A DNA stretch of 64,000 bases from Gemmatimonadota bacterium (GTDB lineage: Bacteria; Gemmatimonadota; Gemmatimonadetes; Longimicrobiales; Gaopeijiaceae), in NCBI GenBank assembly GCA_022826005.1, contig JAJDVT010000121.1:142450-206449 (forward strand). Direction: 5' to 3'. Below, piece after piece: positions 2,965 to 62,569 of this stretch. Position numbers and translations under genes: made by a program. The number at the start of each line of letters is the position of its first letter. Position 1 is the first letter of the stretch. Below the pieces are notes generated by a model, which worked only from the letters and a program-made list of their open reading frames with translations, had not been told where the DNA came from and did no database searches.

Positions 2965-2968
2965 CCCC

Positions 2969-3628: not shown

Positions 3629-3835
3629 GGCGTGCCTCTTGGGAGTGGTTCCATGCTGGATGTTGGAAGGCGTCAGGACGCAGGTCATGATAGCGAAAAG
3701 CTCCGGGTGCGCCAACGCCGGGCGAGAGGCGGGCCGGACGGTCGGCCGCCGTCGCCAATGTGGTGCGGGGTTGGCCATCGGGCGGGCGGTTCGGCCGGGC
3801 TGGCGGCTGGTCGTCGCGCGGACCGTCCAGCCCGG

Positions 3836-4650: not shown

Positions 4651-4656
4651 GGAATG

Positions 4657-4669
4657 AGTATACTATACT
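4657..4669. promoter_or_regulatory. vapBC operator/promoter palindrome
   Basis: AGTATACTATACT is a perfect 6-1-6 inverted repeat starting 7 bp upstream of the vapB ATG. On the minus strand it contains TATAGT and TATACT, both good -10 elements, so repressor binding would block RNA polymerase. Autoregulation is an inference from position and symmetry. Confidence 0.6.
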
Positions 4670-4782
4670 TATGCTGGCGGAGCTACCCCTCAGCCCGATG
4701 GTCCGTGACCCGCGCCGCCCTGACCGGATAACGCGGCAGGGTACCGCGCCCCACGACGCTTACATTCCTCCGCGGTCTACCT

Positions 4783-6246: not shown

Positions 6247-6271
6247 GTTGCATGAGAGCATCCGATACGCG

Positions 6272-9200
6272 TCAGCGTCGCCTCTCCACTGCCGCCGGAA
6301 CGCCCCGGCTGAAGAGTACCTCCACACTCCCGGTCGCACCTGCCACCTCCGCGGCTCTCGTCGCGTCCGCGGCGAGCAGACCGCCCGCAATCGCGCGGGC
6401 CTGCAGGGCATCGGCGCCACGCAGGACCCCACGCACCTGGCCGCTCTCGGGATCGCGCACGATGGCCATCGGCCGATCCGTCTCCAGATCCAGACTGGCC
6501 GCCCCGCCCGGCCCGGCAAGGATGACGCTCGCCAGGGCGCCTGCCCACTCGGCCCGCACGGGCAGCGCAATGGCAAAGGAGGATCTCCCGTCGGTGTCGG
6601 CCATCTCCATCATGCCGAAGCTCACCGAGAACAGTACCTCCCCGCCGGCGGAACGGCCGATGAGCTCGTATTCGCCGGGGACCCCCGGCACGCTGGGCGG
6701 CGCATCCACCAGGAAGGCGGGTTCCAGGAACGGCTTGCCGTCCGCGGCGGCCCCTCCCCAGAGGAGAATCGTCCGCGTTGGCCCGTCGTTTCGAGCACTT
6801 GCATCCGCGGCGACATTCGCCGCGCCGGCACGCCGATGGCCCAGGGCTCTGACAAAGCTGTAGTCACTCACCCAGGCGGGAGGGCCGCAATAGCTCATCA
6901 AGTCAGGCATATCCGGCGGTACAAGCGCACCACCATTGCGCGGGTCGTATCCCCAGACGCCGATCGACCCGTTGAGATGGGGAAACGCCTGGTCGGGGCC
7001 CGCGGCACCCCCGCACGGCGCGTGGGCAAGATTGAGGTTGTGCCCCAGTTCATGTGCCACCACAAGAGGATCGGCTGCCGAGAAACCGACGCGGCCGGGA
7101 ACGTAGGCGACCCCCGACTGTCCCCCGACAACCCGCTCCTCCATGATGCCCATGTAGTAGCCGCGTCCGCCCTCCAATCGATAAGCCATAAGGGTCTCGA
7201 GCAGCAGGTCGACCGGGTCGTTGGTCGAGGTCAGAATGGGTTGGTGTGCGTTCACGTTGAAGCCGGAAATCGGGAGCTGCGTATACGCGTCCCAGAGCAT
7301 CTCGTTCGCCTGCTCCTCCGCCGCCATGGCCAAGGCGATCTCCACGATCGTGGAATCCGGCCCCCGCACGAACAGGAACGGGACGACCGTGAGGTCCAGG
7401 GGCGGCACGGTCTTCACGAGTACCGGTGCGCGGCCCTCCTCGGGAATCCGCTTCGCCACACCCAGCCCGGAAGGCAGGATGCTGTCGGGATCGATCTCGA
7501 TCACCATCTCGAGTCCCGGCTGCACCACCGACCCCGGAATCCACCGGTTCGCCGACTTTGCGAGGTCACCCTCGGCGTCCCCGAAATCGGTTGGGATCGG
7601 GGTCTCCGAGCCCGGGATGTCGGCGACGTACGTCTTTGCGCCGTCCAGAAAGAAGGTCGCCCGTGCACGGGGGATGTGTTCGGTCGTAGCGCCCGGGGCC
7701 GTCACGAACACCCGGAGGAGGGCCGCCCTGTTCGCCACCAGGGGAACCGGGACCGCGAGCGACTGCACCGCCTGGGTCAGGTACGCCCGCGAACCGGCCT
7801 CCGACCCGCAGGGTCCGACCTGCGCATGCTTTACCCACGCCAGCCAGCCTTGAAAGCGGGCATCGGTGGAGGCGCAAAGGCCGGTCCCGGTCACGACCAG
7901 TTCCTCCAGCGGAGGAAGATCCGCCAGGTTCGAGGGGAGCGGGCCGCGCAGGTCGGAGTTGTTGCTCAGGTTCATGCGCCTCAGGCTGATCATGTCCCTT
8001 CCGATCTCGGGCGGCAGTGTGCCCGAGAGCTGGTTGCCCATGAGCCAGAGGAACCGCAGTCGCGACAGGTTGACAAGTGCGGAAGGGATGGCTCCCGAGA
8101 GTTCATTCCCATCGAGCCGCAGCCGCACCAGGGTGGACAGGTTGCCCAGTCGCGGGGGAATCGGCCCCGTCAGCCCATTCCCGAAGAGCTCCAGCCGGGT
8201 CAGCCTGGACAGGTTGCCCAGTTCAGGGGGAATCCGTCCCGTCAGGCGGTTACCTCCGAGGTTCATTATCGAAAGGTTGAACAACCAGCCCATCTCGGCC
8301 GGGATTGATCCTGTCAGTCTGTTCTCGTCGAGTCTCAGTTGAGTCAGGTTGGACAGGCCGCGCAGCCTGCCGGGGATCGGTCCCGTCAATTCATTGTTGT
8401 CGAGGTATAACAGTCTGAGCCTCGCCAGCCGCCCCAGTTCAGGGGGAATGGGTCCCGTGAGCTCGTTTCTGCCGAGGTACAGTTCGTCGAGTCCGGACAG
8501 GTCGCCCAGCTCCGCGGGAATCGACCCCGTAAGCCGGTTGACGGCGAGGTTGAGCCGCTGCAAAACGGACAGCTGGCCCAGCTGTTCCGGGATCGGTCCC
8601 GTCAGCGCGTTCCCCCAGAGATCCAGATACCTCAAGTCGGAAAGGTTGCCCAGCTCAGGAGGGATCGGTCCAGTAAGCGCGTTCTGGGGCAGGGCCAGCA
8701 GCAAAAGGCGCGACAGGTTTCCCAGTTCGGGGGGAATCGGTCCCGTCAGGTCGTTTCCGTCGAGGTACAGGATCGCCAGGCGCGACAAACGGCCCAGCGC
8801 GGGCGGGATACTTCCCGCCAGGTCGTTCTGGCCGAGGATCAGCCGTACGAGTCCGGACAGGCTGGCCAACTCGGGCGGGATAGGCCCCGCGAGGCTGTTC
8901 CAGCTCAGGTTCAGATGCGCCAGGGCGGAAAGGTGTGCCAGTTCGCCCGGGATCCGACCGGTCAGGTTGTTGCCAAACAGACTCAGCTCGACAACGCGGC
9001 CTTCTCCGCTCGTGGCCACGCCAAACCATTCGGCGAGGGGGCGGTCGGACAGCCAGTTGGCGTTGTTGGTCCAGCGCGCGCCGCCGGTGACCTCGTACAG
9101 GATCTCCAGGACCTCCCGGTCGGAGAGCGGAGGACAATCCAGCCCCGAGCCTTCCCAGGACGGGATGGAGGCGAGCCAGTCGCGAAAGTCCCCGTCGCGG

Positions 9201-20541: not shown

Positions 20542-22149
20542 CTACTGCGACACCGGCGTGAGCCCGCCCGAAGTCCGCAGGATGAACCCGTCGAGGACCT
20601 CCTTCCACTGCGGCAGCAGCGCCTGCTCCACGTACATCATGTGCCCCGCGGCGAAGTCCGCCCGCTCGATGTTGTCGCGCAGCTCCGGCGGCAGCCCCAT
20701 CCGGTCCATCGTCCAGACGGCGGCGAAGTAGGGGGTCGCGAGGTCGTAGATGCCGTTGATGAGCAGGACCTCCAGCGCCGGGTTGCGCTTCATGGCTGTG
20801 GCGAGGTCGACGGCGACGTTGGGGGTGCCGCCGCCGCGCACGAAGGCGCCCCCACCGCCCAGCCGGCCCCAGTTCCAGTCGCGGGTGCCGCCGCTGGGGA
20901 CGTACTCACGGTCGCCGTCGTAGCCGAGTTCGCCGCGGAGGTAGCTGTTGAAGGCGGAGGTGTAGGCGGAGCTGATCGCGGTGGACTGGGGGTCGTGGGA
21001 GGGGCGGGCGCCGAGGACATCGCCCGCGGGGCCGGTGAAGCGCGCGTCCAGGCGGCCGACGACGCGGCCCTCGTCGCGCAACAACTCCGCCTCGAAGGCC
21101 GGGGCGGTGACGCGCAGGTCGCTCTTGTCGATGAAGTCGCGGCTGAGCCCCGTGTAGCGGTGCATCCGGTCGATAACGCGGGCACGGGTGTCCGCGTCGA
21201 GGGTGCTGCCCGCGAGAAGCGCGGTGGCGTACTCGGTGAGCGACCACTCCTCCACCTCGGCCATGAAGGCCTCCAGGTCGGGCGGATTCGGGCCCGGCAG
21301 CGCGTCCAGGTAGCGGGCGGTGATCGCGTACGACGGCAGGTTGACGATGTAGGGCAGGTCGTCGCCGGGCGCGAACTGGATCGTATTGAACTGGAGCACC
21401 GCCGAGACGAGCACGATCCCGTTCAGGTCGATGTTGGCGCCCTGCAGGTGGCGCGCCAGCACCGCCGAGCGGGTGGTCCCGTAGCTCTCGCCAAGGAGGT
21501 AGCGAGGCGAGTTCCAGCGGTCGTATTCGCTCAGGAAGCGACGGATGAACTGCGTCAGCGAGCGCGCGTCCTCGTCGATGCCCCAATAGTCGGATCCGGG
21601 CGTCTCACCGAGGGTGTGGCTGAACCCGGTGCCGATCGGGTCGACCATCACGATGTCCGCGATGTCCAGGATCGTGTACGCATTGTCCTCCAGCGGGTAG
21701 GGAGGCGCACCCTGCGGGCCGACTTCGGGCGTGACCACCCGCCGCGGCCCCATGATCCCCATGTGCAGCCAGAAGGACGCCGAACCCGGGCCGCCGTTGT
21801 AGGAGAAGACGATGGGGCGCTCGGGGGACGGCGCCCCGTTGGTGCGGAAGTAGGCCGTGTACCAGAGTTCGGCGGCGGGCTCGCCGTCGTCGCTGGTGAG
21901 GGTGGCGCCGGTGACGATGGCGTCGTACTCCACGGTTTCGCCGCCGACCACGATCGAGTGGCTGGTCTGCCAGCGGGCGGGGGTGGGGTCGCCAGCGGAC
22001 TCCTGGGCGTGGAGCGGTGCCGCGGCGCTGATCGCCAACACCGGCGCGGCGGTTGCGCCAGCGACGGTGACGCCAGCAGCGATGGCGCCAGCAGCAGAAG
22101 CGACTGCCGCAGCTCTGGTGAAGAATTGCCTGGGCTGAAACGTATTCAT
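20542..22149 (-). CDS. Secreted serine carboxypeptidase (S10 family)
   Basis: This is an exported alpha/beta-hydrolase peptidase that removes C-terminal residues, 535 residues from ATG 22149 with AAGGG upstream. The leader 'FFTRAAAVASAAGAIAAG' is Ala-rich and ends near 'PLHAQES'. 'VFSYNGGPGSASFW' forms the oxyanion region, 'LLGESYGTTRSA' holds the nucleophile (about 220), 'LLINGIYDLATP' the Asp (about 471) and 'FAAGHMMY' the His (about 502). All catalytic residues are present, so it should be active. Confidence 0.92.
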   Translation of the reverse strand: MNTFQPRQFFTRAAAVASAAGAIAAGVTVAGATAAPVLAISAAAPLHAQESAGDPTPARWQTSHSIVVGGETVEYDAIVTGATLTSDDGEPAAELWYTAYFRTNGAPSPERPIVFSYNGGPGSASFWLHMGIMGPRRVVTPEVGPQGAPPYPLEDNAYTILDIADIVMVDPIGTGFSHTLGETPGSDYWGIDEDARSLTQFIRRFLSEYDRWNSPRYLLGESYGTTRSAVLARHLQGANIDLNGIVLVSAVLQFNTIQFAPGDDLPYIVNLPSYAITARYLDALPGPNPPDLEAFMAEVEEWSLTEYATALLAGSTLDADTRARVIDRMHRYTGLSRDFIDKSDLRVTAPAFEAELLRDEGRVVGRLDARFTGPAGDVLGARPSHDPQSTAISSAYTSAFNSYLRGELGYDGDREYVPSGGTRDWNWGRLGGGGAFVRGGGTPNVAVDLATAMKRNPALEVLLINGIYDLATPYFAAVWTMDRMGLPPELRDNIERADFAAGHMMYVEQALLPQWKEVLDGFILRTSGGLTPVSQ

Positions 22150-48614: not shown

Positions 48615-49628
48615 ATGATCTTCCGCGGCTCGCAGGTCCGGATGATCGTCGCCTTCTTCATCGCCCTCACGCTGGTCGGGGCGGTGGGATACCGCTGGAT
48701 CGAGGGCTGGAACTGGGCCGACTCGTTCTACATGACGGTGATCACCATCACGGCCGTCGGGTACCACGAAGTCCACCCGCTCAGCCAGGCGGGCCGCTAC
48801 TGGACGACGTTCGTGCTGGCCGGGGGCCTGACCGGGCTAGCGGCCTGGTTCGCGCTGATCACCGCGGCGATGGTCAGGATGGACCTCGGCAACCAGTACC
48901 GGAGACGCAAGACACGCAAGGAGGTTTCACGCATGAGGGACCACGTGATCGTGTGCGGCGGGGGCAGGATGGGCGTCCAGGTCGTGCACGAGCTCCAGGA
49001 CGCCAGCCAGCCGTTCGTGCTGATCGAGCGTGACGAAAACGCGATCCGGGCGCTGCGCAGGGTGTCCCCCGACATTCGCGTCATCGAGGACGACGCGACC
49101 AAGGACCGCGTGCTGGAGGAAGCCGGCATCAAGCGCGCCAAGGGTCTTGTCACCTGCCTTTCCGGGGACACCGACAATCTCTACGTCTGTCTGTCCGCCC
49201 GGCACCTCAACCCCGAACTGGTCATCGTCGCCAGGGCGGAGGGGGAGCGCGCGATCGACAAGATGCGCCGGGCCGGGGCGGACCACGTCGTGAGCCCGAA
49301 CGTTGCCGGCGCGGTCTGGGTTGCGTCCGTGCTGGTGCGTCCCGCCGTTGCGTCGTTCCTGGACGTCACCGCCCCCGGCAGCCATCTGTCGCGGCACCTG
49401 GACCACGCGACGGTGGGCACCTGCTCGCAGGTGGCCGGGACCACGCTGGCCAGAGCGCGGATTCTGGACGCCACCGGGCTGCTGGTTGTCGCGATCCGCA
49501 AGCAGGGCACGCCGCCCGAAGAGGTGCTGCTCAATCCGCCTGGCGACACGGTCCTCGAGCCGGGCGACGACGTGATCGTGCTGGGGGACGAGGAGCAGGT
49601 CGGGAAGCTGCGGGAGTACGTGGGATGA
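48615..49628 (+). CDS. Two-helix potassium channel with RCK (TrkA-N/TrkA-C) domains
   Basis: 337 residues from ATG 48615. Two membrane helices flank the pore 'YMTVITITAVGYHEVH'. The family filter is TVGYGD; here it reads AVGYHE. The RCK domain follows ('VIVCGGGRMGVQVVHEL', 'VIEDDATKDRVLEEAGI'), then a TrkA-C domain at the end ('PPGDTVLEPGDDVIVLGDEE'). It resembles MthK and bacterial Kch channels gated by ligand binding to RCK. An internal ATG near residue 106 ('SRMRDHVIV') could give a free RCK subunit, as in MthK. Confidence 0.88.
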   Translation: MIFRGSQVRMIVAFFIALTLVGAVGYRWIEGWNWADSFYMTVITITAVGYHEVHPLSQAGRYWTTFVLAGGLTGLAAWFALITAAMVRMDLGNQYRRRKTRKEVSRMRDHVIVCGGGRMGVQVVHELQDASQPFVLIERDENAIRALRRVSPDIRVIEDDATKDRVLEEAGIKRAKGLVTCLSGDTDNLYVCLSARHLNPELVIVARAEGERAIDKMRRAGADHVVSPNVAGAVWVASVLVRPAVASFLDVTAPGSHLSRHLDHATVGTCSQVAGTTLARARILDATGLLVVAIRKQGTPPEEVLLNPPGDTVLEPGDDVIVLGDEEQVGKLREYVG

Positions 49629-49941
49629 TGGCGCGCGCGTCGCGTCTGCGGCGCGCCGCTCCCTTCATTCCAACCCGACCGGCGTAACCGATTCGGTCGC
49701 CCCTTGCAGGGTGTTTCTTCGCGCGCGACCCAACTGCGGCGGAGGCAACGGGACGGCGAGCCGGGCCGGGGATTGCAGTTGCTGGAACCCGCTTATCGTG
49801 AGATTATTGCTAATACAGACGAATTATCGCGTTATAGTCACGATAATCAGCGCAATCGTAATGGAATATCGCTGTTCATGCGACTCGACATGGCGTGCCT
49901 GACACCAGCGGCCTTCCCTCGCACCGGAGAGGACTGGTGAA
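49629..49941. other. Intergenic region with AT-rich inverted repeats
   Basis: This 313-bp stretch holds no convincing gene; the 78-codon track ORF looks spurious. The first half is GC-rich; from 49790 it turns AT-rich and carries inverted repeats (separate entry). The last bases contain GGAGAGGA ahead of the small ORF at 49942. Confidence 0.6.
49793..49846. repeat. Inverted repeat TTATCGTGA...TCACGATAA
   Basis: TTATCGTGA (49793-49801) and TCACGATAA (49838-49846) are perfect 9-bp inverted arms 36 bp apart. Related half-sites (ATTATCGCG, TTATAG) lie between them. The AT-rich context suggests a promoter with paired repressor sites for the truncated downstream ORF, or a recombinase-arm site of the island. 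Confidence 0.45.
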
Positions 49942-50223
49942 GTGAACCCTTATAGCAGGGAGCATGGCGAGGCGAAGCTGCAGACGATCAGGGAGATCGT
50001 GTTGTCCGGCGGAACGGTCCGTGTGCCGATCTGGAGGTTGCTCGGCTGGTTCCACCGCCGGCACCGCGGAGCGAAGGTGGTCGGTACCATCCGCCGAGCC
50101 CTCAGGGAATGCGAACTCGAAACGCTCCCGGATTTCGCGGATCGCAATCTGCGCCTCAACAGGATCGTAGGCTTCCGCCGGATCCCGCCTTCCACAGGCC
50201 GCCCCGACCCCACGAGCCGGTGA
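49942..50223 (+). CDS. Short ORF, probably truncated winged-helix-like N-terminal domain
   Basis: 93 residues from GTG 49942. 'VRVPIWRLLGWFHRRHRGAK' and 'VVGTIRRALRECELETLPDF' resemble a small domain I associate with the N termini of CBS-domain and other island proteins ('xVRELLxWFGAxRRGxxIVxxIRxxL'). Here the similarity stops near residue 78 and a Pro-rich tail runs to the stop, 46 bp before the tRNA fragment. I infer that the rest of the gene was cut away when the island inserted or decayed. Confidence 0.45.
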   Translation: MNPYSREHGEAKLQTIREIVLSGGTVRVPIWRLLGWFHRRHRGAKVVGTIRRALRECELETLPDFADRNLRLNRIVGFRRIPPSTGRPDPTSR

Positions 50224-50705
50224 TGCTCGCCGGCACGACACAGGCGCAGGGCGAGGTGACGCATCGGCATGGGCGCTGACGGATTCGAACCGCCGACCTC
50301 CTGCTTGTAAGGCCGCCCCTAGGCAGTCCCCAGTCCAAGCAAGAAGCTACGCAAATCCAACCAGGACCGCACGATCCCTCCTTCTTGCCCCTATGGACCT
50401 GTCACGGTCGACCGGATCGAAAGAGCCGGAGATTTGCCGGAATCGCGGACGAAATGCGAGCGCGCGTCTGGGTGGAGCATGAACAGGCGGCCGGGCCAGA
50501 GGGCAGCGGACGGAGTTTCGGGCCGGGGAGGAAGTCAAGGTCGAGTCGCCAACCGGACAGTTTCCCGCCGTCAAGAGTGGTTCCACCGGTCCGACCTCTC
50601 GCTCGTCTGCTCCATCAACGGCACCTCGGACCTGTTCGAGCCGAGGCGTCGGCTGATCGCCGACTGCGCGGTTCTCCACAGGGTTTCCCGTCGGTAGATT
50701 TCGAC
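50224..50705. other. Island boundary region without a convincing gene
   Basis: The 482 bp between the truncated ORF and the first STAND gene contain the tRNA-Val 3' fragment (50270-50313). The remaining bases show no repeat or coding pattern I can support. Track ORFs here overlap on both strands and lack ribosome sites; the STAND ORF is open through this region but begins credibly at 50706. Confidence 0.55.
50270..50313 (-). other. 3' fragment of tRNA-Val(TAC): probable attachment site
   Basis: Read on the minus strand this is the 3' end of a tRNA: anticodon loop CTTACAA (anticodon TAC), 3' anticodon stem GCAGG, variable loop AGGTC, T arm GGCGG-TTCGAAT-CCGTC, acceptor strand AGCGCCC and discriminator A. 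The match to tRNA geometry is exact for positions 30-73. The 5' half (acceptor, D arm, 5' anticodon stem) is absent: the sequence that should read CCTGC is GCGGC, and no AGCGCCC complement follows. A lone 3' half is what tyrosine-recombinase elements leave at one end after inserting into a tRNA gene. Confidence 0.72.
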
Positions 50706-53700
50706 ATGACCGAAGACAACCCGCAGGATACGACCGCGTCCGAAACGCCCCGGGGCGGTCGTGGTGCGCCGGAATCGCCCCAAGGAATGAGCCCTTATGC
50801 GACAGGGGGCGGTGGCGTCACCTTCGAGCGACAGGTGGCGGTCAAGTACCTGGCGCACATGCTCGCTGGCGATGGCGCGAGCGAGCTTGGAGACGGCCGC
50901 CGCGTAGTGAACGTCGCGTTCCAACAGGCCCCGGCCCATCCCGCCGACGATCTGGTGGTTAGTGCAGCGTACTCGGACGAGTCGCAGCCATCCTTGGTGC
51001 TTGCCATCGCCGTGCGTCGGTCGCCCAAACTCGTTCAGAGTGACAAATCAACGCGGAGGCTATTCCTGGGATTCGTCCGAGCTTTGGTCGATACACCCAA
51101 GGCCGGACCGGAACACCGTTGGGGCTTGGTTGTCGCGGGACCTCAGCGACATGCTCGGCAACTCGCACAACTGGTGAGCCTCGCTGGGGGTCAATCGGAC
51201 GCACCAAGCTTCTTCGAATGTGTCGATTCCCCCGGCAGACACGATATCGGCGTTCGACGGAGACTGGGGCAGATCGAGGCGCTGGTTGAACGTGCGCTTA
51301 CGGACCTCGATGTCGGTGAAGTCGACACTACGCAGATACGGAGGCGCGTTTGGGAACTCCTAACGCGCCTCGAGGTCCGTATGCCGCGCCTCGAGTCCCC
51401 GGACGATACTGATTGGTCAAACGTGGCGAACAGTCTTATCCCACTGGGCCGAGGGTCCGGTCTGGAAGCCGCGATCCGCCTCCGCGACCGCCTCGTGGCT
51501 CTTGCGAATGAATACGCACCCAAGGCCGCACGAGTTGATCTCGTGATGCTACGACGTGACACCCACTTGCTAATCAACCCGGCGAAGCGGCACCGAGAGA
51601 GCGCCTGGCTAATACTCGACCGCCTTCATCAAGCGGCGCTCGCTTCGGTGCGTGCAGAAATCACCTCTGGTGACGGCATTCGCAAAGTGCGCCTTGATCG
51701 AAGCGAACTGGCTGCGAAACTGGTGAGCCTCACAAAGGAGGCTGCCGCTGTGGTAGTGACCGGCGAGTCAGGCGTCGGAAAGAGTGCACTTGCCCTGTTG
51801 GGGCTCGCAGCCGCGAGCAAGGCTGACCCCGACAGCCTACAGATCTTCTGTGTCAACCTGCGCCATATCCCCCAAAAGCCGGTCGAGTTCGAGGCAACGT
51901 TAGGTGGACCGCTTCCGACTCTTCTCCAAGAACTGAGTGCACCCAGGCGACTGCTCGTCATTGATGGTGCTGATGCTGTCATCGAAGGTATGGAACACGC
52001 CTTTCGTCACCTGGTCGACGCCGCCAAAGAAACCGAGATGGCCGTAGTTGCCGTGACTTCCAAGGAGAGTGCCGCGGCAGTGCGCAGCCCGCTGATCGAG
52101 CGCTTCGCGGGCGGTGTTACTGAGTGTGGGATCCCAACGCTGACCGATGCCGAGATAGCCGAAATCGGCGAGACCTTTGCGGAATTGAGGAGACTCTACG
52201 CGAATCCGCAGTCACGCGAGGTCCTGCGCCGACTTGTTGTTGTTGACCTGCTCGTACGAGGCCGTGTCCACGACGTTCCGCTAAGCGATGCAGATGCGAT
52301 GCGGGAGGTTTGGTCGGGCCTGGTGCGACGCCGAGAGATGAGTGACAAGGGATCTCCAGATGCACGCGAGTTCGCCCTGCTTCGCCTTGCCGAACTAGAT
52401 CTCATCGGAGGCGACCGCCTAGAAGTCATGAGCAGGATTGACTCCACTGCCCTCGACGGACTACGGCAAGACGGGTTGTTACGAACGTCCCCCAGCGATC
52501 CGTTCAGGATCGGCCCGGAGTTCGCACATGACGAAGTGAGGCGCTACGCACTCGCCCGCCTGCTGCTGGCCGAGAGGAGTCCGGTTTCGCGAATCAAGGC
52601 AGCCGGAGCTCCGCGTTGGTCGCTCTCGGCCGCCCGGCTCGCTTGTCAAGAGCATTTGGCACTGCCCAATACGGCGGGGACTCCTCTACGCGGCAGATTC
52701 GCTGCGCTGCAGGGTTCTTTCGCCGAACTCGTCAAGGCTGGTCATGGTGCGCGTTGGGAAGACGTGCCTACCGAAGCGTTGCTCACAATCGCGAATCCCA
52801 GCGCTGTGCTCAGGGACGCATGGCCCGGACTGCTTGCCGACCAGCGTGCCGGGATACGCCGGATCGCCCGCCTTGTCGATCAGCGGCTGCGTGACGACAA
52901 CGGCATCGTTGACATCGTCGCCGTGGAGCCGGTCGTCACACTGTTGCTCGACGACAGCACTCCTTGGCGATCCGGGGACGACGCCAAGGGCTTGCTGAGG
53001 TCCTGGCTGCGCGCTCACGTTGCCACGAATACGCCCGCTGGCAATCCATTGCGCGTCCTGCTGCGTGATCGCCTCGTTGAGGCATGTGCCGCGGCCGATC
53101 GTCGCTTCGCCAAGAAGCAGGCAGCACTGGCCGCCAAGCGTGCCGCTCGAACACCTGAAGAGATCGAAAGAGAACGCCGTTTCGAAGAGAAGCATGGGTG
53201 GGCGGTACCAGAGATCCGACGGCGCCGAAAGCGACCTGGGATTCCCCATGAGATTACGAGCGAGATAGTCCTCGAGCTGCTTGGACTGCTCGGTCCAGAT
53301 CTCGGCCACGAGGGTGAGGCGATCCTGCGTCGCGTTGCACGGGATGCACCATCGTGGCTCGCTCCGGCTGTGGACGATTTCTTTGCCAGCCGTGCGCTCG
53401 CCTTATTTGGGCAAAGCCTCTTGGCTCATCTGACCGAAGCCTACTACGTCGACGACGAGGCGGACGGCTCTGATTCCCTCTGCGACGGCGTCCGCGGACA
53501 CCGACGGCGCAGCTTGTCGGACCCGTTCGCTGCATGGCATCTCGGGCCGTTCATGTCCCTCCTTCAGGTCGACTTCCGCCGCGGTGCCAAAGTTCTCAAC
53601 CGCCTTCTAAACCATGCAGCCGTCATTCGTGCTGTCGGCCTGGCTCGTGCTATTCAAGGTGACCAACCGGCCGAAGATGAGAGCGTCCGCGCCTACGAAA

Positions 53701-54431
53701 CCGAACTTGAGGTTGCCGAACTAGAGGTTACTGGCGAGCGGAAGCTCTATGTTGGCGACCAACACGTTTGGCGCTGGTACCGTGGAACGGGAGTCGGACC
53801 CTATCCATGCCTCAGCGCGTTGCTAGCACTGGAGCGAGCATGCGACCAGCTGGTCGATTCCGGCGTTTCACTGAGCAGATTGACTCAGGTGCTGTTCGAT
53901 GGCTGCGAGAACCTCGCGATGGTCGGTCTCATCGTCGGACTGCTCGTGCGGCATCTTGAAGATGCGGATCAGCTACTAGATCCCTACCTTGCCGAACCGC
54001 TCATCTGGCACCACGAATTCGCGCGCGTCGCAAATGAGAACTCAGGGTTCGCAGCAGACTCCGAGGGGCTCGTGGCACCCGAGCGCCGCGGCTGGTCGCT
54101 GAACCATGTCGCCATGTTCCTAGTCCTTGGAGCCACCGAAGAACGCGTTGCGGCGCTCCGTGCGGTTGGGGCGACGCTTGTTGCCAATGCCCGGCGGCAG
54201 ATCAGCCAGCTACTTGAGCAGGAGTCCAAGCAGGCAGAGGACGATCACGCCTCCTTTATCGAACAACAGCTAATGCCAGTGCGTGCCTGGGCCAGCCGGC
54301 TCGATCGCGACATGTACGAAGCCCGTCAGACTTCGGACGGTGTATACATCCAAGCCGCGCCGCCAGATGATGTAGTGCAAGGGTTGGCAGAGGCCAATGC
54401 GGATATGGAACGCACGCGGCAGGCCATTTGA
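50706..54431 (+). CDS. STAND-type NTPase with degenerate PD-(D/E)xK-like N terminus, 5' part of split gene
   Basis: 1241 residues from ATG 50706. Residues 35-190 resemble Cap4-type nuclease domains ('FERQVAVKYLAHML', 'ADDLVVSAAYSDES'), but where the catalytic Glu/Gln-x-Lys should be the sequence reads 'LVLAIAVRRSPK', so cleavage ability is doubtful. A P-loop follows: 'VVVTGESGVGKSALAL' (Walker A, about 352) and 'RLLVIDGADAVIEG' (Walker B, about 416). The remaining 750 residues are helical repeats, the usual sensor part of STAND proteins. Defence function is inferred from architecture and island location. The frame ends at TGA in 'ERTRQAI*' and continues one base over in the next entry. Confidence 0.75.
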   Translation: MTEDNPQDTTASETPRGGRGAPESPQGMSPYATGGGGVTFERQVAVKYLAHMLAGDGASELGDGRRVVNVAFQQAPAHPADDLVVSAAYSDESQPSLVLAIAVRRSPKLVQSDKSTRRLFLGFVRALVDTPKAGPEHRWGLVVAGPQRHARQLAQLVSLAGGQSDAPSFFECVDSPGRHDIGVRRRLGQIEALVERALTDLDVGEVDTTQIRRRVWELLTRLEVRMPRLESPDDTDWSNVANSLIPLGRGSGLEAAIRLRDRLVALANEYAPKAARVDLVMLRRDTHLLINPAKRHRESAWLILDRLHQAALASVRAEITSGDGIRKVRLDRSELAAKLVSLTKEAAAVVVTGESGVGKSALALLGLAAASKADPDSLQIFCVNLRHIPQKPVEFEATLGGPLPTLLQELSAPRRLLVIDGADAVIEGMEHAFRHLVDAAKETEMAVVAVTSKESAAAVRSPLIERFAGGVTECGIPTLTDAEIAEIGETFAELRRLYANPQSREVLRRLVVVDLLVRGRVHDVPLSDADAMREVWSGLVRRREMSDKGSPDAREFALLRLAELDLIGGDRLEVMSRIDSTALDGLRQDGLLRTSPSDPFRIGPEFAHDEVRRYALARLLLAERSPVSRIKAAGAPRWSLSAARLACQEHLALPNTAGTPLRGRFAALQGSFAELVKAGHGARWEDVPTEALLTIANPSAVLRDAWPGLLADQRAGIRRIARLVDQRLRDDNGIVDIVAVEPVVTLLLDDSTPWRSGDDAKGLLRSWLRAHVATNTPAGNPLRVLLRDRLVEACAAADRRFAKKQAALAAKRAARTPEEIERERRFEEKHGWAVPEIRRRRKRPGIPHEITSEIVLELLGLLGPDLGHEGEAILRRVARDAPSWLAPAVDDFFASRALALFGQSLLAHLTEAYYVDDEADGSDSLCDGVRGHRRRSLSDPFAAWHLGPFMSLLQVDFRRGAKVLNRLLNHAAVIRAVGLARAIQGDQPAEDESVRAYETELEVAELEVTGERKLYVGDQHVWRWYRGTGVGPYPCLSALLALERACDQLVDSGVSLSRLTQVLFDGCENLAMVGLIVGLLVRHLEDADQLLDPYLAEPLIWHHEFARVANENSGFAADSEGLVAPERRGWSLNHVAMFLVLGATEERVAALRAVGATLVANARRQISQLLEQESKQAEDDHASFIEQQLMPVRAWASRLDRDMYEARQTSDGVYIQAAPPDDVVQGLAEANADMERTRQAI

Positions 54432-55923
54432 ACTGGGGGTGCGGTATCACGTCGAGCCAGCGAAGGGGAACACCGATCTCCAGCCACCTGATCAGTTGAC
54501 GGCTGACCTTGCTACCGCCCGAGAACTCCTTGAGAATCCGCCATCGTTCTCCGTGTATGATCCTTCGGACGCGGCCGCCTTGGTAGCTGCGGCCGCACTG
54601 GAAGCGCATTTCTTGAATGCTTGTGATCTGCCACATCATGCACTCTCGTTCGCTGCAAAGACCGTGCTTCAGGTCGGAGAGGGCGCGGTGGAGCCTCGGC
54701 CGTTTGAGTACGAAGACACCTTGTTTGATCAGGGTGCCGATCGCAGCGCCGCTCGAGTGCTTCCGTTGCTGCTCCTACCGGATTCTGAACCGATACGAGC
54801 CGTTATCGGCAACGGGAGCCAACAAACATCCATCGAACGCGTGCTGGCTGCCGGCCTCAACCTTGCCCAGGCAGTCGCGAACGAAGTGCGACTCTACCTT
54901 GTCCGGCGTTTGGATCACGTGTGGGAGGCGCCCTGCGCAAACGACGACCGTTGCCATCACGAGCTGGGGTTGTCGCTCGTCACCAGCACGCTGCGAGACT
55001 GCATAGTGGGTCCTTGGGTCCCCGACACCGGACGACGTACCGTGGTCGCGCTCAAGGAGCCCTTGGCCGAGTCGCTTGCCGCTACCGACGACGATTCAAT
55101 CATAACGTTTCGTCTCGACGCGGCGATACGAGCTCTCGGTCCCGCAGTGCTGGCCAACGTCTGCATATCAGCGCGGGCACGTGTTCTGCTTTCGGCGCTC
55201 CTTGCCGCTCAGCGTAGGTCCCTCCTACGACAGGAACGGCATCACGCGGACCATAGAGGCTCGCATTCTCTCGTCAGCGCCCGCGCTCTCTTGACGCTCG
55301 CACAGAATGGCGACGACGCAGGCATCTACCAGCACATCGACGCCTATGCCAACAACCCGGCACTGCTCGGCACGATGCTACGCGCGTTGTCGGCAGCAGC
55401 AGAGGAAACCTCAAGCCGGGCAGCGACGGCACGGCGAATCTGGCCTGGCTTAGTTCGTCACGTACTGGAATTGAACGCGTCTGGCCACACGCCGTTTCAG
55501 GGTGGTCACTACGGCGATATGGCCCTGGCTTCCCTCATTCCCAGCACCGCGCCTAAAGATTGGCACTACTTGTACCGTGAGGTTGAGGACCAACCGATCA
55601 AGTGGTGGAATCCCCGCACCATGCGATCCGCGGTCGAGGAATGGCTAGTGGTCGCTGCGGGGACAGCAGATTGCGTTGATCACCTCATCGGTTTCCTCAG
55701 CGTACTCTCACCTGAGGATCAGGTCCGCGTTGGACTACCGTGGCTAAAGGCCCTTGTCCTCCCGGATCCCGACCGCATCGCTGCCGGTAGCTTCATGGTT
55801 GCCACTTGGCTAATCGAAAACCGGTCTGCGGCTGTCGCCGCCGACCTTCTGCCCAGATGGCAGGAAATCGTCGATGCGCTGGTCGTCGCGGGGGTCACCC
55901 GCCTTGCGACCTATTCAGAATAA
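54397..55923 (+). CDS. 3' part of the split STAND NTPase (helical C-terminal sensor region)
   Basis: A 508-codon ORF overlapping the upstream frame by 35 nt. Deleting one T in GCCATTTGAACTG (about 54427-54431) joins the two as 'RQAIELGVRYHVEP' and gives one chain of about 1738 residues ending at 55923. No ribosome site precedes the internal ATG at 54397. The sequence is helical ('ALVAAAALEAHFLNACDLPH', 'ALLTLAQNGDDAGIYQHIDA') and continues the repeat pattern upstream. Either a single-base indel or base-call error broke the gene, or the two halves are made separately or by frameshifting. Confidence 0.7.
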   Translation: MRIWNARGRPFELGVRYHVEPAKGNTDLQPPDQLTADLATARELLENPPSFSVYDPSDAAALVAAAALEAHFLNACDLPHHALSFAAKTVLQVGEGAVEPRPFEYEDTLFDQGADRSAARVLPLLLLPDSEPIRAVIGNGSQQTSIERVLAAGLNLAQAVANEVRLYLVRRLDHVWEAPCANDDRCHHELGLSLVTSTLRDCIVGPWVPDTGRRTVVALKEPLAESLAATDDDSIITFRLDAAIRALGPAVLANVCISARARVLLSALLAAQRRSLLRQERHHADHRGSHSLVSARALLTLAQNGDDAGIYQHIDAYANNPALLGTMLRALSAAAEETSSRAATARRIWPGLVRHVLELNASGHTPFQGGHYGDMALASLIPSTAPKDWHYLYREVEDQPIKWWNPRTMRSAVEEWLVVAAGTADCVDHLIGFLSVLSPEDQVRVGLPWLKALVLPDPDRIAAGSFMVATWLIENRSAAVAADLLPRWQEIVDALVVAGVTRLATYSE

Positions 55924-56155
55924 CCCGCGTTTTGTGCATCAGGCGCTGAGCCCGTGACGCAGGTGGAATCGCGTGAGTGAGCACTGAACAAGTCGGATCG
56001 GCTGGGAGAGTGCCGGATGGTCGGGCAGTGGTTCCTTCAGCCCTGCGCCGTATGTGATGTCGGTGAGTCGCGGTCGTGGTCCATCCGCAGTCGTTCGTCA
56101 TGGGCTGGCAGTCCGATCTAAGGCTCCTGGAACCTTCCGGTTCACCCACTGGCAG
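55924..56155. other. Convergent intergenic gap between the two STAND genes
   Basis: 232 bp separate the two tail-to-tail STAND genes. Apart from a weak 5-bp hairpin (GAACC-TTCC-GGTTC near 56131-56144) without a T run, I see no gene, terminator or repeat. Confidence 0.5.
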
Positions 56156-59100
56156 CTATTTTTCCTGATGAAGCCCATTGGCAAAGATGAACTCCCGCCA
56201 GACTAGGCGATTGGCGTAGGCGTTCCTGAGTCGCTGGAATGCGGACGGGCTCAGTAGCATCCAGGAACCCCACAACAATGGCCTCTCAAGCTGGTAGTCG
56301 TCGACGTCATACGAGCTACGCCACGTCTGGACAACGAGACCTTGCCCGTCGGCGTCGTTCATAACTAGTTCCTCTTCCGGCTCCAGCTCTGCAGCCGCCA
56401 CCAGCTGTCTTGTGGGAGCAAGCAGGGGATCAGCTGGCCCTAGCTGTTCGCCTCCGATGCGCAAAACCGAGCTTTCCTGGTCGATCCCAACCAGAGGACC
56501 GTCTGGGTACCGCACATCAGCGGGAACATTCCGGACGACTGTAGACCATCGGCGAGCGTCTCCCTTAGCAAGAGGCGGGTAGTTAACGCCCGTGAAGTCG
56601 TCCCGTCCCCTAGCCTCGAGTGCACAGGCCCGCCGCGTAAAGCTCTGTGGCAGATTCCAATCGTCGTGAACCGTTTCTCGGGTTTCGTAGGACGCTATTA
56701 CGCGCCAACCCCTGTATGGTCCCTCAATCACTGTTGGTGCCCGCTTGCACGACGCGAGACGAACCGTCGCACTGAGCCGACCATGACCGGCCTCTTCTGC
56801 CCCGCTCAAGCCATCATCGCCTACTTCAGTTCCGCTATTGGTCACCGAGGCCCTAATCCTACCCCACACTGCCGAGATGGCGCTCGGTGGGGGCGAAAGA
56901 CTTGGACGGGGTATTCTGACGAACTCGAGTGCTAGGCTGGTCGTGGGACTTAGGATCAGTTGCCGTGCGAGTTGGGCTTCCCATTCCAGCGGAGACACCA
57001 ATATCTCACCGCTTCGGGCGAGCGACGCGCGAGCAGCAGCCCCTGTGCGCTGGACGATCCTTTCGAACCTCTCCTCTACTCCGATCACCGCGTTCGGTTG
57101 TATCTTGCGAACATGACTGGCAAGCGCCCTAAGCTGCCGACCCCGTCGTTGTTCGAAGGACTCGCTTCGAAGTGCTTGAGCGAGTTCCCTTTCCACCGTT
57201 GCGCGGAATCCGGGCACGAGCGTGTCGGCTTGAGCCACTCGATCACCGCCGAAATGGGTCACGATGAGCTCGGGATCGTATGGCCCTTCTGTATCCGCAT
57301 TGGCATCGGCGTTATCCCGAGCTGAAGAAGTCGATGAGCGGCCGAAATCCGTACCTTCCGCCGGGATCCACAGCCCTGAGTACTCCGTTGAACCGAGCGT
57401 AACGCCATCATCCGCAACCGGAGGAGGCGGCGGGTCGAACCCGTGGAGCGCGAGCAACTCGGCCGCTAGCGAACGGACTATGAGAAATGATCGCGATAAC
57501 GCCAGTTTCCGAAGAGCTGGTTCGCAGGCGGTAACCACGGTTTGAGTCGACGACTCGGAGTAAAGCAACACATAGAGCAACCACGTCAAGGTCGTCGGAT
57601 CAGAAATCTGGTGGAGCAGTTTCCGCAACGCCAAGCCGATCAGGTCCGGTTCTTCGGCTAGCAGCAGCTTGATCGCTAGAAGGGTCCTTCGCTTGTCCTC
57701 TCGCGCCGGACTCGACAGGCCAGCCACTAGGCCCATCGTCAATGCACAGGCAGCAGCCTCCGAGTCGCCCTCGCCGCCTGGGGATGATGCTACCCTTCCT
57801 TCGAAGGCTGGTCTCTCAATGGTGTCTGGCTGGTATGCCGGCACGGGGTCATCGTCACTCCCTTGGCGTGGGAGGCGATTCCGGATGACCTCATAGGCCT
57901 GATCCCAAACGACGAACGGTAGCATCTTGTCAAGACTGGACCACCGGATTCGACTTATGGCCACCACCAAGGCCCTGCTTATCCCATACGTACCGTATCC
58001 ACTTGAACGAACAAAGAACGCCACTTCTTCAGCTAGGGTACCAAGCGTGGCTCTCTCATCGATCTTTACGGCACTTCCGAGGCTCTCCAGGGCGTCCTTC
58101 CCGCCGAAGGTGTTCCAACCGCCTCCTCCGCGGGTTCGGGTCCACGCAAGTGTATGGCACAGCGTCGCAAGTTGCGCGTTGCCATGTAGCTCAAACCCAC
58201 GAGCCAAGTCACCGAGCAATCGCCCTGTCTGGTCAACGCCAGCGTTGTTCGCCAGATACCGAATAGCCGTCACGCAGTCCGCGTCTCGATCTTGAAGCGA
58301 GAGTTCTAGGAGCCGATATCCAATGGCATTGGTAAACCGCTCTCTTGACCATTCTGGCGCACTCGCTCGATAAGGGCGACGCTTCCACGTTCTTATCGCC
58401 CTTCGAATGCCAGCTGGTCCAGTCCCGAAGTCGTCAAACACTTCAAGATGGGGATTCTTGGACCGCGTTGCTGTTTCAAGGTCTGACGATGCGCTACTTG
58501 ATTCAACGGTCCGACTGGTTGCACAAGGTAGAACGTGGCATTGACCGACCAAGGAGGCGATTCGGTTTAGTTCATCCACCTTTTCGCTATCTCGATCAAC
58601 AAGCTCTTGACTGTCGGTGACAGCATAGGATGTTGGACGCTCATCGACACGCGATAGTACCAAGCGGAACCAATCGATCGACACCGCAGTGGAGGGTCCG
58701 ACTGGTTCGATTAGTCGGTTGAGGCAGGTTGCGTCAAGTGCAGTCAGACCGGGCCGAATGGCCAGCCGTAGTGCCGCGGCTATGTGCGGTGGTGCATTCG
58801 ATTGTTGCTCTTTCCAAAGGTCCTTTATCGCTGTCGTCAGCCTGTAGGAGGGGAGGTTGCAGCTCGCTAGCAATTCTGGCGCAGCCATTTCCGCGACCGC
58901 AATCGGGTCGGCCTTGGCCAGCAACTTCCACCAGCGCTGCGGTGCTCCGCGCGTGCCCTTGCGGTCGGTATGGAGCACGACTCGCTCACACAGCTCTTGC
59001 AGTCCCGGAAGGCGTTCTCGCGCTTGGGCGCGGTCCAGTTCGATCAGATCGGGGAAGGGGTCCAGTAGTTCGTAGATCGTGGCATCCTTTCGTACTCCGT

Positions 59101-62100
59101 AGCCGACCAACGCTTCACATGCACTCTCCCAAAGGATCTGCGCCTCGTCGCGATCATCGGCGGCAAGAGCAAGCCGCGCTGCTGCAAGCTGAAATCGGGC
59201 TACATCCGTGTAAAATCGGCGTTCCGTTTCCTTTGTCAGTATCGACCTAACGACCTTACGGGATTCATTGAATCGGCTTGAGGTCGTCCCAGCTATCACC
59301 AGACCTAGGACTTCGTCCGGAGGGATCGGGCCACCAAGTTCACCTTGGAGAGTGACAGTGGTCTGGTTGCTGGTGGTACGCAAGAGGTCAATTGCCTCAC
59401 GCCAAGAAGCGTCGTCCACTAGCTGAAGGGCGCGTTGCAAAGTGGAGTGGATTATACCTCCCAAGGCGAATAGGTCGCAGGCGCGGGGGTCGCCCGAGAA
59501 CGGATCCGTGACCGCTGTCAGGAGCGTTAGTGCCTCAAGTGCTGCCTCGGGCCGCTCATCCGCGCCAACCACCTCCGCACGACACAACGCTACAGCAAAC
59601 TGAAGCCAACTCCCATACCAGCCATCGGCGTCGAGGATCGATTCGACTGCGCCTAGGGCAAGGGGATCCCGTCGTGCTGCTACTGCGCACGCATCAAGCC
59701 AATCCAAGATCGGCGCCGGACGGAATTGGATCCCTGAATCTTGGATTGTCCTGGTTAGCTCGAAAAGTCGACTACGACGTTGATCTGGATCTGACTGGTC
59801 GATCTCGTCTACCGAGAGTCCCAGGGAAAGTAGACGATGGACTCGACCCGGTGGCAGACCGCTTGCTATGGCGGCTTTGGCCCATCTAATGCTGGCCGAC
59901 ACCGACTCGTCCCCGGATCGCTCTGCCATCGCGAGTTCGTATTCCGCACGATCAGGCAGGTGGCGAATGACCGTCTCCATGGCGTCAGGACCAAGGGTGT
60001 TTGACACGGCATCAACGACGCCACTGCTTGGGAGTTCCGCAGATTGTAGCTTTCTTGCCAGTCCAGCCAGGTCAACATTCTCCGCGAGGCGCAGTTGCCC
60101 TCGTAGGGTAGCCAGCTCTATCAGTTGATTGGACCCCGACCCGTATACCGTGTTATCACTCTTCTTCTCAACTTCAAAGGCGGTGAGGTATTCCCGCCAC
60201 GGGGCTGACTCGCCGGCGGCATCCACTTGATCGCAAAGGAGCAGGCCTGTTCGCGCTGGCACGGTTGTCCGACCATCGTATAGCAACCTGCTCACGAACA
60301 CACTCGGTCCGAGGAGAGCCAAAGGGATATCGAGGAATTCCACCATTGTAGAATCGAGACGCTCGAATTCGTATGTCTCCGCAGCTCTCGCGAGTTCCAC
60401 AAACCTGATGATGTCGGGCCAGGCTCCTATCTGCGCAGCTGCGTTAACTGCCGTGGCCAGATTCGCGACGATGCTACGGGCGGTGAAACCTGCTGCGACG
60501 GCGCGGGAGACATAGTTCACCTGTACCCGAGACACTACGTCGGCGTACCGACCGGCTTCAACGAGGGTTGGTAGGAGGTAGCGAAAAGACCGAGCGTCCA
60601 TGAGGAACCCCCGGCCATCGAGCCAGTCGACGATCTCGGCAAGGATCGCGAGTCGCGCCCGCGGGTCATCTAGGATGGACTCCCGTAGGAAACGCACGAA
60701 AGACTCATGATAGACCCTGACACCGCCCTGACTTGCCACCTCGTGAAGAACGGGGACAAGCTGGTCGAGCACGACATCTACTCTGTGGGCAAGCGTAGGT
60801 CGGATTTCGCCGATCTCAGCACGCGTCACGGAGAACGGCAGAAACGCCAGAAGGTCGCCGAGTTGCCGGCCACCGCTGTCCACGGCAGACAGCAGATGAG
60901 TGTAGTAGGCCCGCAGTGATCCGTCGAAGGGAGGTAGGGTATCAACCATCTCCGCGGGATCCACCAGCGCTCCGGGCCCCTTGAGGAGTTCTCGGCAAAT
61001 GTAGGTTGCGTAGAGACCGTTGCCATCACTCTTTTCGCAGAGTGAGTTGACGAAGTCCCCAACCTGTGGTCCGAGGCCTTCCGATTCGATGGCTGCGATG
61101 GCTCCAGCTCGTTCGGCGAGTTCCCTGACCTCAGGAAGGGAAAGGCCAGGCAACTCGACGGTGTGGCCGCCGACCTGTTCAAGCGGATTCAGATGCTGGC
61201 CCGGTTGACTTAGGACGACCACGGTCGCGCCCTCAGGGAGCTGCAAGTGGGCTAGCTCTTCCGCCCGCAGGTGAGCTGGGTCGCTTCGACCTACGGTTGC
61301 CCCGACTACTCTGGTAACGTGATCCAGTCCGTCGACAACGAGCGCTACCCGTCCGTGTTTTTCCACACCGCGCTTAACGGCCGCCACTAGAGTGTCCTCG
61401 TTGACGGCATACAGCGGGCGCAGCTCTGCCACGAGGTTTGGGTCGGCCTCGGCGAGACCGCGAAGCAGGCTGCCAAGCATTGGATCAGATTGCACCCTCT
61501 GCTCAAGCTCGTGGTCTTGCTGGTCAAGAAAACAGTAGTGTTCGGCGACGACCCATTCGGACTCCATCAACGACTGGCAAAGCTGCTTGCTGATCCAGGA
61601 TTTTCCATGACCAGGCGGCGCCACGACCACAAGCGGCGAAGCTGTCGCAGCGGCCCTCTCGGCTGCGGCAATGAGTTGGCGGACTACGCCTTCCCTAGTG
61701 ACCTCAAGCGTAGTGTTGACGGGGTTTGCCCGCGCGACGGCACCGTAGTCTGATCGAAGATTGGCCTGACGCCTCAACTCATCCGGTGTGGCAAGCTGGT
61801 CGCGCAGCCGCATCGCGCGGGCGAAAGCCACGAAATGGGCCGCCACGTCGATGGCGGACCGCTCGGCGTTGGGGTAGCATTCGGCACCGATTTCGAGTCG
61901 AACGCGATCAAGCAGGAGCCTCTCTGCCGCCTTGGGTTGAGCCAGATCGAAGCTGGCCTCGGGTGCCGCCAATTCGATTACCAACAGGTCACTCAGCGTC
62001 TCAAGGTCGGCCTTCGCTGACTCGCCGCTCCGTATGAACGCAAGAGCACTAGGGGCGTCGGGTCTCTGGCCCCATTCCCAGACTGCGTTCGAATCGAATC

Positions 62101-62569
62101 TGAATCGGACCGTTCGCATTCCTATCGCAAATGGGCCTGGGTCCGGATCAGTCGGTCGGAGAATCCGAGTGAGGCGAGAGTCAGTTGGGGGATGGTCGCG
62201 AAGAAGCACTCTCAACGTCGACGGCCGATTCGGTGTGGCCATCATGCGTTCCTGCCTACTGGCCGCTACGAGCTTGTCGAGGCGCAGTCGTCGTTGATTG
62301 TTCGTGAAGGTAGACAGTGGCAGGTCTACGTCTAAGTCCCCTTCCCGGTGTTTTATCTGAATCCGATCACGCCGTCCGTCAGGTGCTTCGGCTATCAAGT
62401 CATCGAACGGATCTCCCGGATATAGCTTCTTTTCCGCAGTCAGGGAGGCGAGGGATCCAAGCAGCAGGTCTGGCAGCTTGATAGCCGCCATTATGTCTTG
62501 GTATTCATACCCGCGATGCGCGGCGCGGAGCGGGGCTGCACGGGAGCCGCCCCATTCACCCCGTTTCAC
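56156..62569 (-). CDS. Giant Cap4-nuclease / STAND NTPase (Avs-like), 2137 residues
   Basis: The start is GTG 62569, which overlaps the helicase gene's end by 14 nt. Residues 15-240 match Cap4-type (DUF4297) nucleases: 'RGYEYQDIMAAIKL', 'DPFDDLIAE' (Asp 57) and 'RIQIKHREGD' (Gln 71, Lys 73), a D...QxK active site. The NTPase core has 'PLVVVAPPGHGKSWISK' (Walker A, about 321) and 'RVALVVDGLDHV' (Walker B, about 410), then 'VYHESFVRFLRE', the usual end of the STAND arm. About 1500 residues of helical repeats follow, the probable sensor. Architecture resembles Avs anti-phage proteins but is longer than typical. I predict activated DNA degradation after ligand recognition (inference). Confidence 0.82.
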   Translation of the reverse strand: MKRGEWGGSRAAPLRAAHRGYEYQDIMAAIKLPDLLLGSLASLTAEKKLYPGDPFDDLIAEAPDGRRDRIQIKHREGDLDVDLPLSTFTNNQRRLRLDKLVAASRQERMMATPNRPSTLRVLLRDHPPTDSRLTRILRPTDPDPGPFAIGMRTVRFRFDSNAVWEWGQRPDAPSALAFIRSGESAKADLETLSDLLVIELAAPEASFDLAQPKAAERLLLDRVRLEIGAECYPNAERSAIDVAAHFVAFARAMRLRDQLATPDELRRQANLRSDYGAVARANPVNTTLEVTREGVVRQLIAAAERAAATASPLVVVAPPGHGKSWISKQLCQSLMESEWVVAEHYCFLDQQDHELEQRVQSDPMLGSLLRGLAEADPNLVAELRPLYAVNEDTLVAAVKRGVEKHGRVALVVDGLDHVTRVVGATVGRSDPAHLRAEELAHLQLPEGATVVVLSQPGQHLNPLEQVGGHTVELPGLSLPEVRELAERAGAIAAIESEGLGPQVGDFVNSLCEKSDGNGLYATYICRELLKGPGALVDPAEMVDTLPPFDGSLRAYYTHLLSAVDSGGRQLGDLLAFLPFSVTRAEIGEIRPTLAHRVDVVLDQLVPVLHEVASQGGVRVYHESFVRFLRESILDDPRARLAILAEIVDWLDGRGFLMDARSFRYLLPTLVEAGRYADVVSRVQVNYVSRAVAAGFTARSIVANLATAVNAAAQIGAWPDIIRFVELARAAETYEFERLDSTMVEFLDIPLALLGPSVFVSRLLYDGRTTVPARTGLLLCDQVDAAGESAPWREYLTAFEVEKKSDNTVYGSGSNQLIELATLRGQLRLAENVDLAGLARKLQSAELPSSGVVDAVSNTLGPDAMETVIRHLPDRAEYELAMAERSGDESVSASIRWAKAAIASGLPPGRVHRLLSLGLSVDEIDQSDPDQRRSRLFELTRTIQDSGIQFRPAPILDWLDACAVAARRDPLALGAVESILDADGWYGSWLQFAVALCRAEVVGADERPEAALEALTLLTAVTDPFSGDPRACDLFALGGIIHSTLQRALQLVDDASWREAIDLLRTTSNQTTVTLQGELGGPIPPDEVLGLVIAGTTSSRFNESRKVVRSILTKETERRFYTDVARFQLAAARLALAADDRDEAQILWESACEALVGYGVRKDATIYELLDPFPDLIELDRAQARERLPGLQELCERVVLHTDRKGTRGAPQRWWKLLAKADPIAVAEMAAPELLASCNLPSYRLTTAIKDLWKEQQSNAPPHIAAALRLAIRPGLTALDATCLNRLIEPVGPSTAVSIDWFRLVLSRVDERPTSYAVTDSQELVDRDSEKVDELNRIASLVGQCHVLPCATSRTVESSSASSDLETATRSKNPHLEVFDDFGTGPAGIRRAIRTWKRRPYRASAPEWSRERFTNAIGYRLLELSLQDRDADCVTAIRYLANNAGVDQTGRLLGDLARGFELHGNAQLATLCHTLAWTRTRGGGGWNTFGGKDALESLGSAVKIDERATLGTLAEEVAFFVRSSGYGTYGISRALVVAISRIRWSSLDKMLPFVVWDQAYEVIRNRLPRQGSDDDPVPAYQPDTIERPAFEGRVASSPGGEGDSEAAACALTMGLVAGLSSPAREDKRRTLLAIKLLLAEEPDLIGLALRKLLHQISDPTTLTWLLYVLLYSESSTQTVVTACEPALRKLALSRSFLIVRSLAAELLALHGFDPPPPPVADDGVTLGSTEYSGLWIPAEGTDFGRSSTSSARDNADANADTEGPYDPELIVTHFGGDRVAQADTLVPGFRATVERELAQALRSESFEQRRGRQLRALASHVRKIQPNAVIGVEERFERIVQRTGAAARASLARSGEILVSPLEWEAQLARQLILSPTTSLALEFVRIPRPSLSPPPSAISAVWGRIRASVTNSGTEVGDDGLSGAEEAGHGRLSATVRLASCKRAPTVIEGPYRGWRVIASYETRETVHDDWNLPQSFTRRACALEARGRDDFTGVNYPPLAKGDARRWSTVVRNVPADVRYPDGPLVGIDQESSVLRIGGEQLGPADPLLAPTRQLVAAAELEPEEELVMNDADGQGLVVQTWRSSYDVDDYQLERPLLWGSWMLLSPSAFQRLRNAYANRLVWREFIFANGLHQEK

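Follow-up and report, generated by a model that had tools for sequence, protein, structure and literature searches.

Introduction

Genomic islands that occupy tRNA genes and are marked by displaced gene fragments are a classical observation (PMC4383910). Anticodon-loop tyrosine integrases act through a 7-bp overlap bordered by the anticodon stem (PMC8371274, citing Williams 2002 and Campbell 2003). In archaea, pTN3-like integrases have been described that target tRNA genes through the 5' half (PMC8371274; PMC5495485), which is said to occur seldom in bacteria (PMC8371274). In open-access text, no account came to light of a family that works on both halves of a single tRNA gene, and no literature was found on such elements in Gemmatimonadota of sponges.

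The DNA studied here (the window) is the whole analysed stretch of 64,000 nucleotides, which forms the last 64 kb of contig C81 in a 4.85-Mb metagenome-assembled genome of 143 contigs; the contig ends at window position 64000, inside a helicase gene. A preliminary description, made from the letters alone, had proposed that an orphan 3' half of tRNA-Val(TAC) marks the end of an integrative element. We compared this junction with other sites of the same genome and with related genomes (numbered with G below; contigs with C), and the features located in the window are given in Table 1.

Results

The minus strand of the junction reads GCCTTACAAGCAGGAGGTCGGCGGTTCGAATCCGTCAGCGCCCA, which has a single match in the 64-kb window at up to three mismatches, and no match in any of 100 dinucleotide shuffles. 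All 44 nucleotides are shared with the 3' part of the intact tRNA-Val(TAC) of at least 11 same-genus genomes, spanning the anticodon loop to the 3' end. ARAGORN predicts no tRNA anywhere in the window, and the Rfam tRNA model scores the sequence at 18.5 bits, where the gathering score is 29; therefore, it is a fragment and not a gene. Both the orphan 3' half and the missing 5' half of the preliminary description thus stand, to which the minus-strand orientation can be added.

Table 1. Features of the chromosomal flank, the element end and its cargo (window positions)
Feature	Position	Strand	Evidence
Trk-type K+ channel gene, chromosomal neighbour of tRNA-Val(TAC)	48615..49628	+	Near tRNA-Val(TAC) in relatives
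Spacer between Trk gene and displaced half, chromosomal side	49629..50269		641 bp, no homologue in fetched loci
Displaced 3' part of tRNA-Val(TAC), chromosomal side of attR	50270..50313	-	Exact 44-nt identity with intact gene of relatives
GCAGG, 3' strand of anticodon stem, putative core half-site	50300..50304	-	Borders overlap in 3'-type and 5'-type sites
7-bp anticodon loop CTTACAA (TTGTAAG on +), putative strand-exchange overlap	50305..50311	-	G004 homology ends there; 3'-type and 5'-type halves keep it
Conserved R arm of element (attP arm side)	50314..50480	-	Recurs at own C130, G090, G077, G019, G021, G017, G006
Inverted repeat, left arm GCAAGAAG	50339..50346	+	Paired changes in 17 arms
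Candidate arm-type site TTGGATTTGCG, resembling L-arm TTGAACTTACG	50350..50360	-	R arms versus L arms; putative function
Inverted repeat, right arm CTTCTTGC	50381..50388	+	Paired changes in 17 arms
STAND NTPase, Avs-like, element cargo	50706..54431	+	NACHT/AAA_22, weak Avs4 match; 90% identical protein only in G004
508-aa protein, no family, same cassette as STAND gene	54397..55923	+	Inside 92% DNA match to G004
2137-aa STAND-like protein, element cargo	56156..62569	-	Weak Avs1b match
SNF2-type helicase (HmaA/DrmD/PLD-helicase-like), element cargo, cut by contig end	62556..64000	-	Family match; C130 paralogue

The intact tRNA-Val(TAC) is present in 19 same-genus genomes (Gemmatimonadota, Longimicrobiales); seven of these (G006, G010, G013, G015, G017, G018 and G021) have it close to the Trk gene, and in G021 its end directly abuts that gene. 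Since the 3' end of the tRNA faces Trk in the relatives, in the same order as in the window, what lies left of the fragment is the DNA normally found downstream of tRNA-Val(TAC). A displaced half, and not the intact gene, adjoins Trk in G005 and G020; in G002 the copy near Trk is cut by the contig start, and in G003 the Trk gene is reduced to a fragment. The relatives found through the Trk gene are titled, where named, Gemmatimonadetes or Longimicrobiales bacteria, and many may be sponge-associated, as read from bin names alone.

The spacer between Trk and the fragment could not be aligned to the fetched loci, so the closest genomes give no base-perfect empty site. It contains an AT-richer stretch, and another insertion next to the tRNA may have left it behind. 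Apart from this spacer, the seven relatives with intact tRNA-Val near Trk present the tRNA site without the island genes, which answers the comparison with island-free genomes proposed beforehand; the window STAND gene itself was found in only one of 58 relatives (G004). Furthermore, GC3 is 0.84-0.91 in genes left of the fragment versus 0.61-0.75 to the right, and GC falls from 66-69% to 57-63%, in agreement with the change of gene style initially noticed.

Right of the fragment, the STAND NTPase frame is open from 50385, its start being probably 50706 or 50787. Its Avs4 match covers about 50 of 1570 model positions (6e-5), the Avs1b match of the 2137-aa protein covers 311 of 1924 (1.8e-10), and neither STAND protein has a full-length match to the Avs models. 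The 508-aa protein has no match in Pfam, PADLOC or PHROG. The helicase DNA is 86% identical to C130:2168-3597 of the same genome, and 99% identical over its last 200 bp. The start of C130 overlaps C111 and C112 by 141 bp; both encode HmaB-like DUF1156 methyltransferases and are tied to C130 by sequence overlap only, and the element probably continues with such a methyltransferase module. The cargo probably serves anti-phage defence.

In G004, the DNA at C20:17584-11959 is 92% identical to window positions 50302-55928 (R arm, STAND gene and 508-aa gene), so that the arm and the first 5.6 kb of cargo are common to both genomes. There, the neighbour of the element end is not a tRNA half but the 3' part of a protein gene, and the likeness between the two sequences stops at the 7-bp anticodon loop; consequently, the same element end occupies two unrelated sites. 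The 5' part of the interrupted gene lies on G004 C34, joined to CTTACACGCAGGAGGTCGGCGGTTCGAATCCGTCAGCGCCCA, the element-carried 3' half of tRNA-Val, which is followed by the L arm and then by an integrase with an intact 387-aa open reading frame, 80% identical to the integrase at tRNA-Ile on C62 of the window's own genome. Sixteen relatives have this gene in one piece, as does the own genome in a 50%-identical homologue. The G004 junction is one base shorter than the reading frame of intact relatives predicts, possibly by a later deletion.

The R arm (140-170 bp) recurs at two places on C130 of the own genome, in seven other genomes and in G019, and in most recurrences a displaced tRNA half comes next: from tRNA-Val(TAC) in G090, G077 and G019, and from tRNA-Ile(GAT) on own C130 and in G021, G017, G006 and G090. 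This identifies it as the R arm of an element family that integrates into tRNA genes, and on own C62 an intact tRNA-Ile adjoins a tyrosine integrase. At L ends (relatives, own C62 and C58) the order is tRNA, TTGAACTTACGGGATTT or close variants, and integrase. R arms contain TTGGATTTACG, similar to the L-arm TTGAACTTACGGGATTT, and the window version TTGGATTTGCG is a candidate arm-type binding site by this resemblance.

Across 17 arms, a 10-bp inverted repeat is kept at constant spacing by changes on both sides, with 92.9% of its cells paired versus 84.5% in shuffles and 41-56% when slid. Paired changes cannot tell a folded strand from a two-fold protein site, and the repeat may be either; an inner hairpin of the R arm, unlike the outer repeat, received no support from them. 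On own C130 (17532-20940), three tandem tyrosine recombinase genes lie between two R arms, resembling an RIT element and bordered by 87-bp inverted repeats (95%), and another such trio is found on C122. The trio, next to the C130 arm, was ruled out as the driver, because it has those inverted repeats of its own and the arm recurs in genomes whose tRNA sites carry the single-integrase family. Another stretch of C130 (3685-11222) adjoins an R arm without a tRNA half; with its ubiquitin-like E1/E2/JAB, patatin-like and metallo-beta-lactamase-like genes, it looks like a defence locus of CBASS type II or a related kind.

The own genome has 36 hits to tyrosine-recombinase domains, about 18 of them of one family and many at contig ends, and most lie at sites not recognisable as tRNA genes. 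All 36 are on contigs other than that of the window, with no tyrosine integrase in the 13.7 kb of element seen here. In G011, G016 and G018, an integrase of the same family lies just upstream of tRNA-Val(TAC) and points at its 5' end. Moreover, G002 (with one change in the loop), G015, G011, G016 and own C138 have displaced 5' halves that end in CTTACAA, with the same type of R arm behind them, read from the opposite side; on C138, the orphan 5' half at C138:22903-22938 is followed by the 5'-type integration arm. An AbiEi-like gene lies on one side of that half and Cas_GSU0054 / Cas3-like CRISPR genes on the other. In the tree, the three 5'-type integrases form one clade among the tRNA-targeting members (support 100/100), and of the 15 members at sites that were not recognised as tRNA, 14 cluster separately with weak support. 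The integrase beside the tRNA of G011 is an uninterrupted 388-aa open reading frame, so it is not split by integration.

Arrangements with more than one element end were also seen. In G009, G005 and G020, intact tRNA-Val has L arms of the element on both sides. In G005:C374 and G020:C50 the intact tRNA-Val(TAC) lies in the opposite orientation to the displaced half and Trk, at a distance of 2.3-4.1 kb, a likely result of inversion between two flanking element ends. The T-stem alleles of the displaced half and the intact tRNA-Val differ in G020:C50 (GGCGG/CCGTC against GCTGG/CCAGC), as expected if integration swaps the host 3' half for the version of the element. A third tRNA, tRNA-Pro(TGG), is probably occupied by elements of this family in tandem: own C97 has two displaced 3' halves (7-43 and 4340-4376), and C58 has the intact gene (20946-21019) and an integrase. 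On G004:C77, 8.8 kb separate a displaced half from a tRNA-Val copy truncated by the start of the contig, both in the same orientation. This element (11-8799) and that at G019:C317 7893-15664 are 8-9 kb elements at tRNA-Val with decayed integrase remnants, whose large proteins look SusC/SusD-like by eye.

Discussion

These comparisons make us highly confident that the fragment represents an attR scar, left by an integrative element on its right. The att footprint of the preliminary description was borne out by the sister element of G004, which has the same end at another site and breaks at the anticodon loop. That description had left attL or attR open; attR stands, that is, the end away from the restored tRNA and integrase, and attL does not. 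Against the attR reading, the other end, the integrase and the intact tRNA-Val(TAC) are not on contig C81, the spacer beside Trk leaves the closest genomes without a base-perfect empty site, and the G004 junction is one base short.

Strand exchange by a tyrosine integrase would have taken place in the 7-bp anticodon loop of the chromosomal tRNA-Val(TAC), with the anticodon stem supplying the core sites; similarity to G004 stops at the loop and both types of displaced half keep it, from which the cleavage positions are deduced. The attP of the element would have carried its own copy of the tRNA 3' half, restoring the tRNA at the integrase-proximal end (attL, unassembled here), and the original 3' half of the chromosome would have been pushed to the far end, where it is now found. 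The chromosome extends up to about 50304, downstream of tRNA-Val, and element DNA from about 50312 rightward to the contig end, first as R arm and then as STAND/Avs-like and SNF2 cargo.

A restored tRNA at the other end of the island would fall outside the assembled sequence of the own genome, where neither a second copy of the 44 nucleotides nor an intact tRNA-Val(TAC) was found (ARAGORN on loci from an Rfam tRNA search), and the tRNA-Val anticodons predicted are GAC and CAC, without TAC. The codon GUA requires a tRNA with anticodon TAC, and no gene for it is assembled; hence the intact gene almost certainly sits in an assembly gap. An integrase would be expected beside it, and the element may be mobile today. 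A tentative alternative, which we consider the less likely course, is that the island is a decayed and immobile remnant, in which the scar is genuine and integrase and attL have been lost, as in older copies of relatives. The tRNA-Val elements of G019 and G004 with only short integrase remnants, and the lack of an integrase in the visible 13.7 kb, would fit such decay, although R arm, overlap and displaced half are undamaged in the window, and the 92% identical sister element retains its intact integrase frame at the L end.

Two further explanations can be set aside. As the own assembly has one orphan 5' half, one orphan 3' half and zero intact copies, a split tRNA gene could be imagined, with the C138 and window halves joined in trans as in Nanoarchaeum; a trans-spliced tRNA-Val is ruled out, however, because the halves both contain the 7-nt loop, and thus overlap, and sit in integration junctions, each fused to an arm that also accompanies other tRNA halves, and relatives possess the intact gene. 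Despite a metagenome assembly in many contigs, and a contig that ends in a gene with a near-identical paralogue, the chance of an assembly chimera is negligible and a fortuitous resemblance of the 44 nucleotides is ruled out, since the arm-plus-half junction is repeated in independent genomes, with two tRNAs, and the chance expectation from the shuffles is zero.

Beyond the scar itself, we find it fairly probable that one integrase family attacks tRNA-Val from both sides, and that the functional tRNA-Val of the own genome is entirely element-supplied, lying between two element ends. Both uses by one family would be understandable because the anticodon stem-loop is nearly symmetric. With one orphan half on C138 (5') and the other in the window (3'), the own tRNA-Val is probably sandwiched between elements, the unassembled middle being deduced from its two sides. 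The order would be upstream element, displaced 5' half (C138), 5'-type element, intact tRNA-Val, 3'-type element, displaced 3' half (window) and Trk. If true, the sole tRNA for the Val codon GUA would be element-made, and the host would be strongly pressed against losing either element imprecisely.

In this context, an island boundary in an uncultured bacterium has been fixed to a few bases, and the recognisable attR arm defined here makes other members findable. A bacterial integrase family that switched between the halves of one tRNA gene would offer natural pairs for direct tests of half choice, where the rules in question are overlap sequence versus core symmetry.

The window island is itself of a known kind, and the two-sided use of one tRNA by one family is an unusual variant. 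With tRNA-integrated islands in the Islander definition (PMC4383910), it shares the displaced tRNA end fragment, the cargo and, through its sister element, the tyrosine integrase family, and the restored tRNA at the other end and the tandem arrays are also seen in relatives here; unlike those islands, its far end is unassembled, and the family also uses the 5' half and a protein-gene site. The crossover in the 7-nt loop, with the stem as core sites, would be shared with the anticodon-loop class (PMC8371274), from which the family differs in its specific R arm of about 140 bp with a 10-bp inverted repeat and in the use of either direction. As in pTN3-like elements, the 5'-type relatives displace the 5' half and have the integrase just upstream of the restored tRNA and aligned with it (G011), whereas they are bacterial, lack a suicidal split integrase and have sister integrases that use the 3' half of the same tRNA. 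Finally, the cargo shares a STAND NTPase core and an SNF2 helicase with Avs/STAND and Hma/DISARM-type defence genes (PADLOC); the likeness to Hma may extend to the HmaB-like DUF1156 methyltransferase on graph-neighbour contigs, with the helicase in the window, and the difference from Avs lies in STAND matches that are weak and cover small parts of the models.
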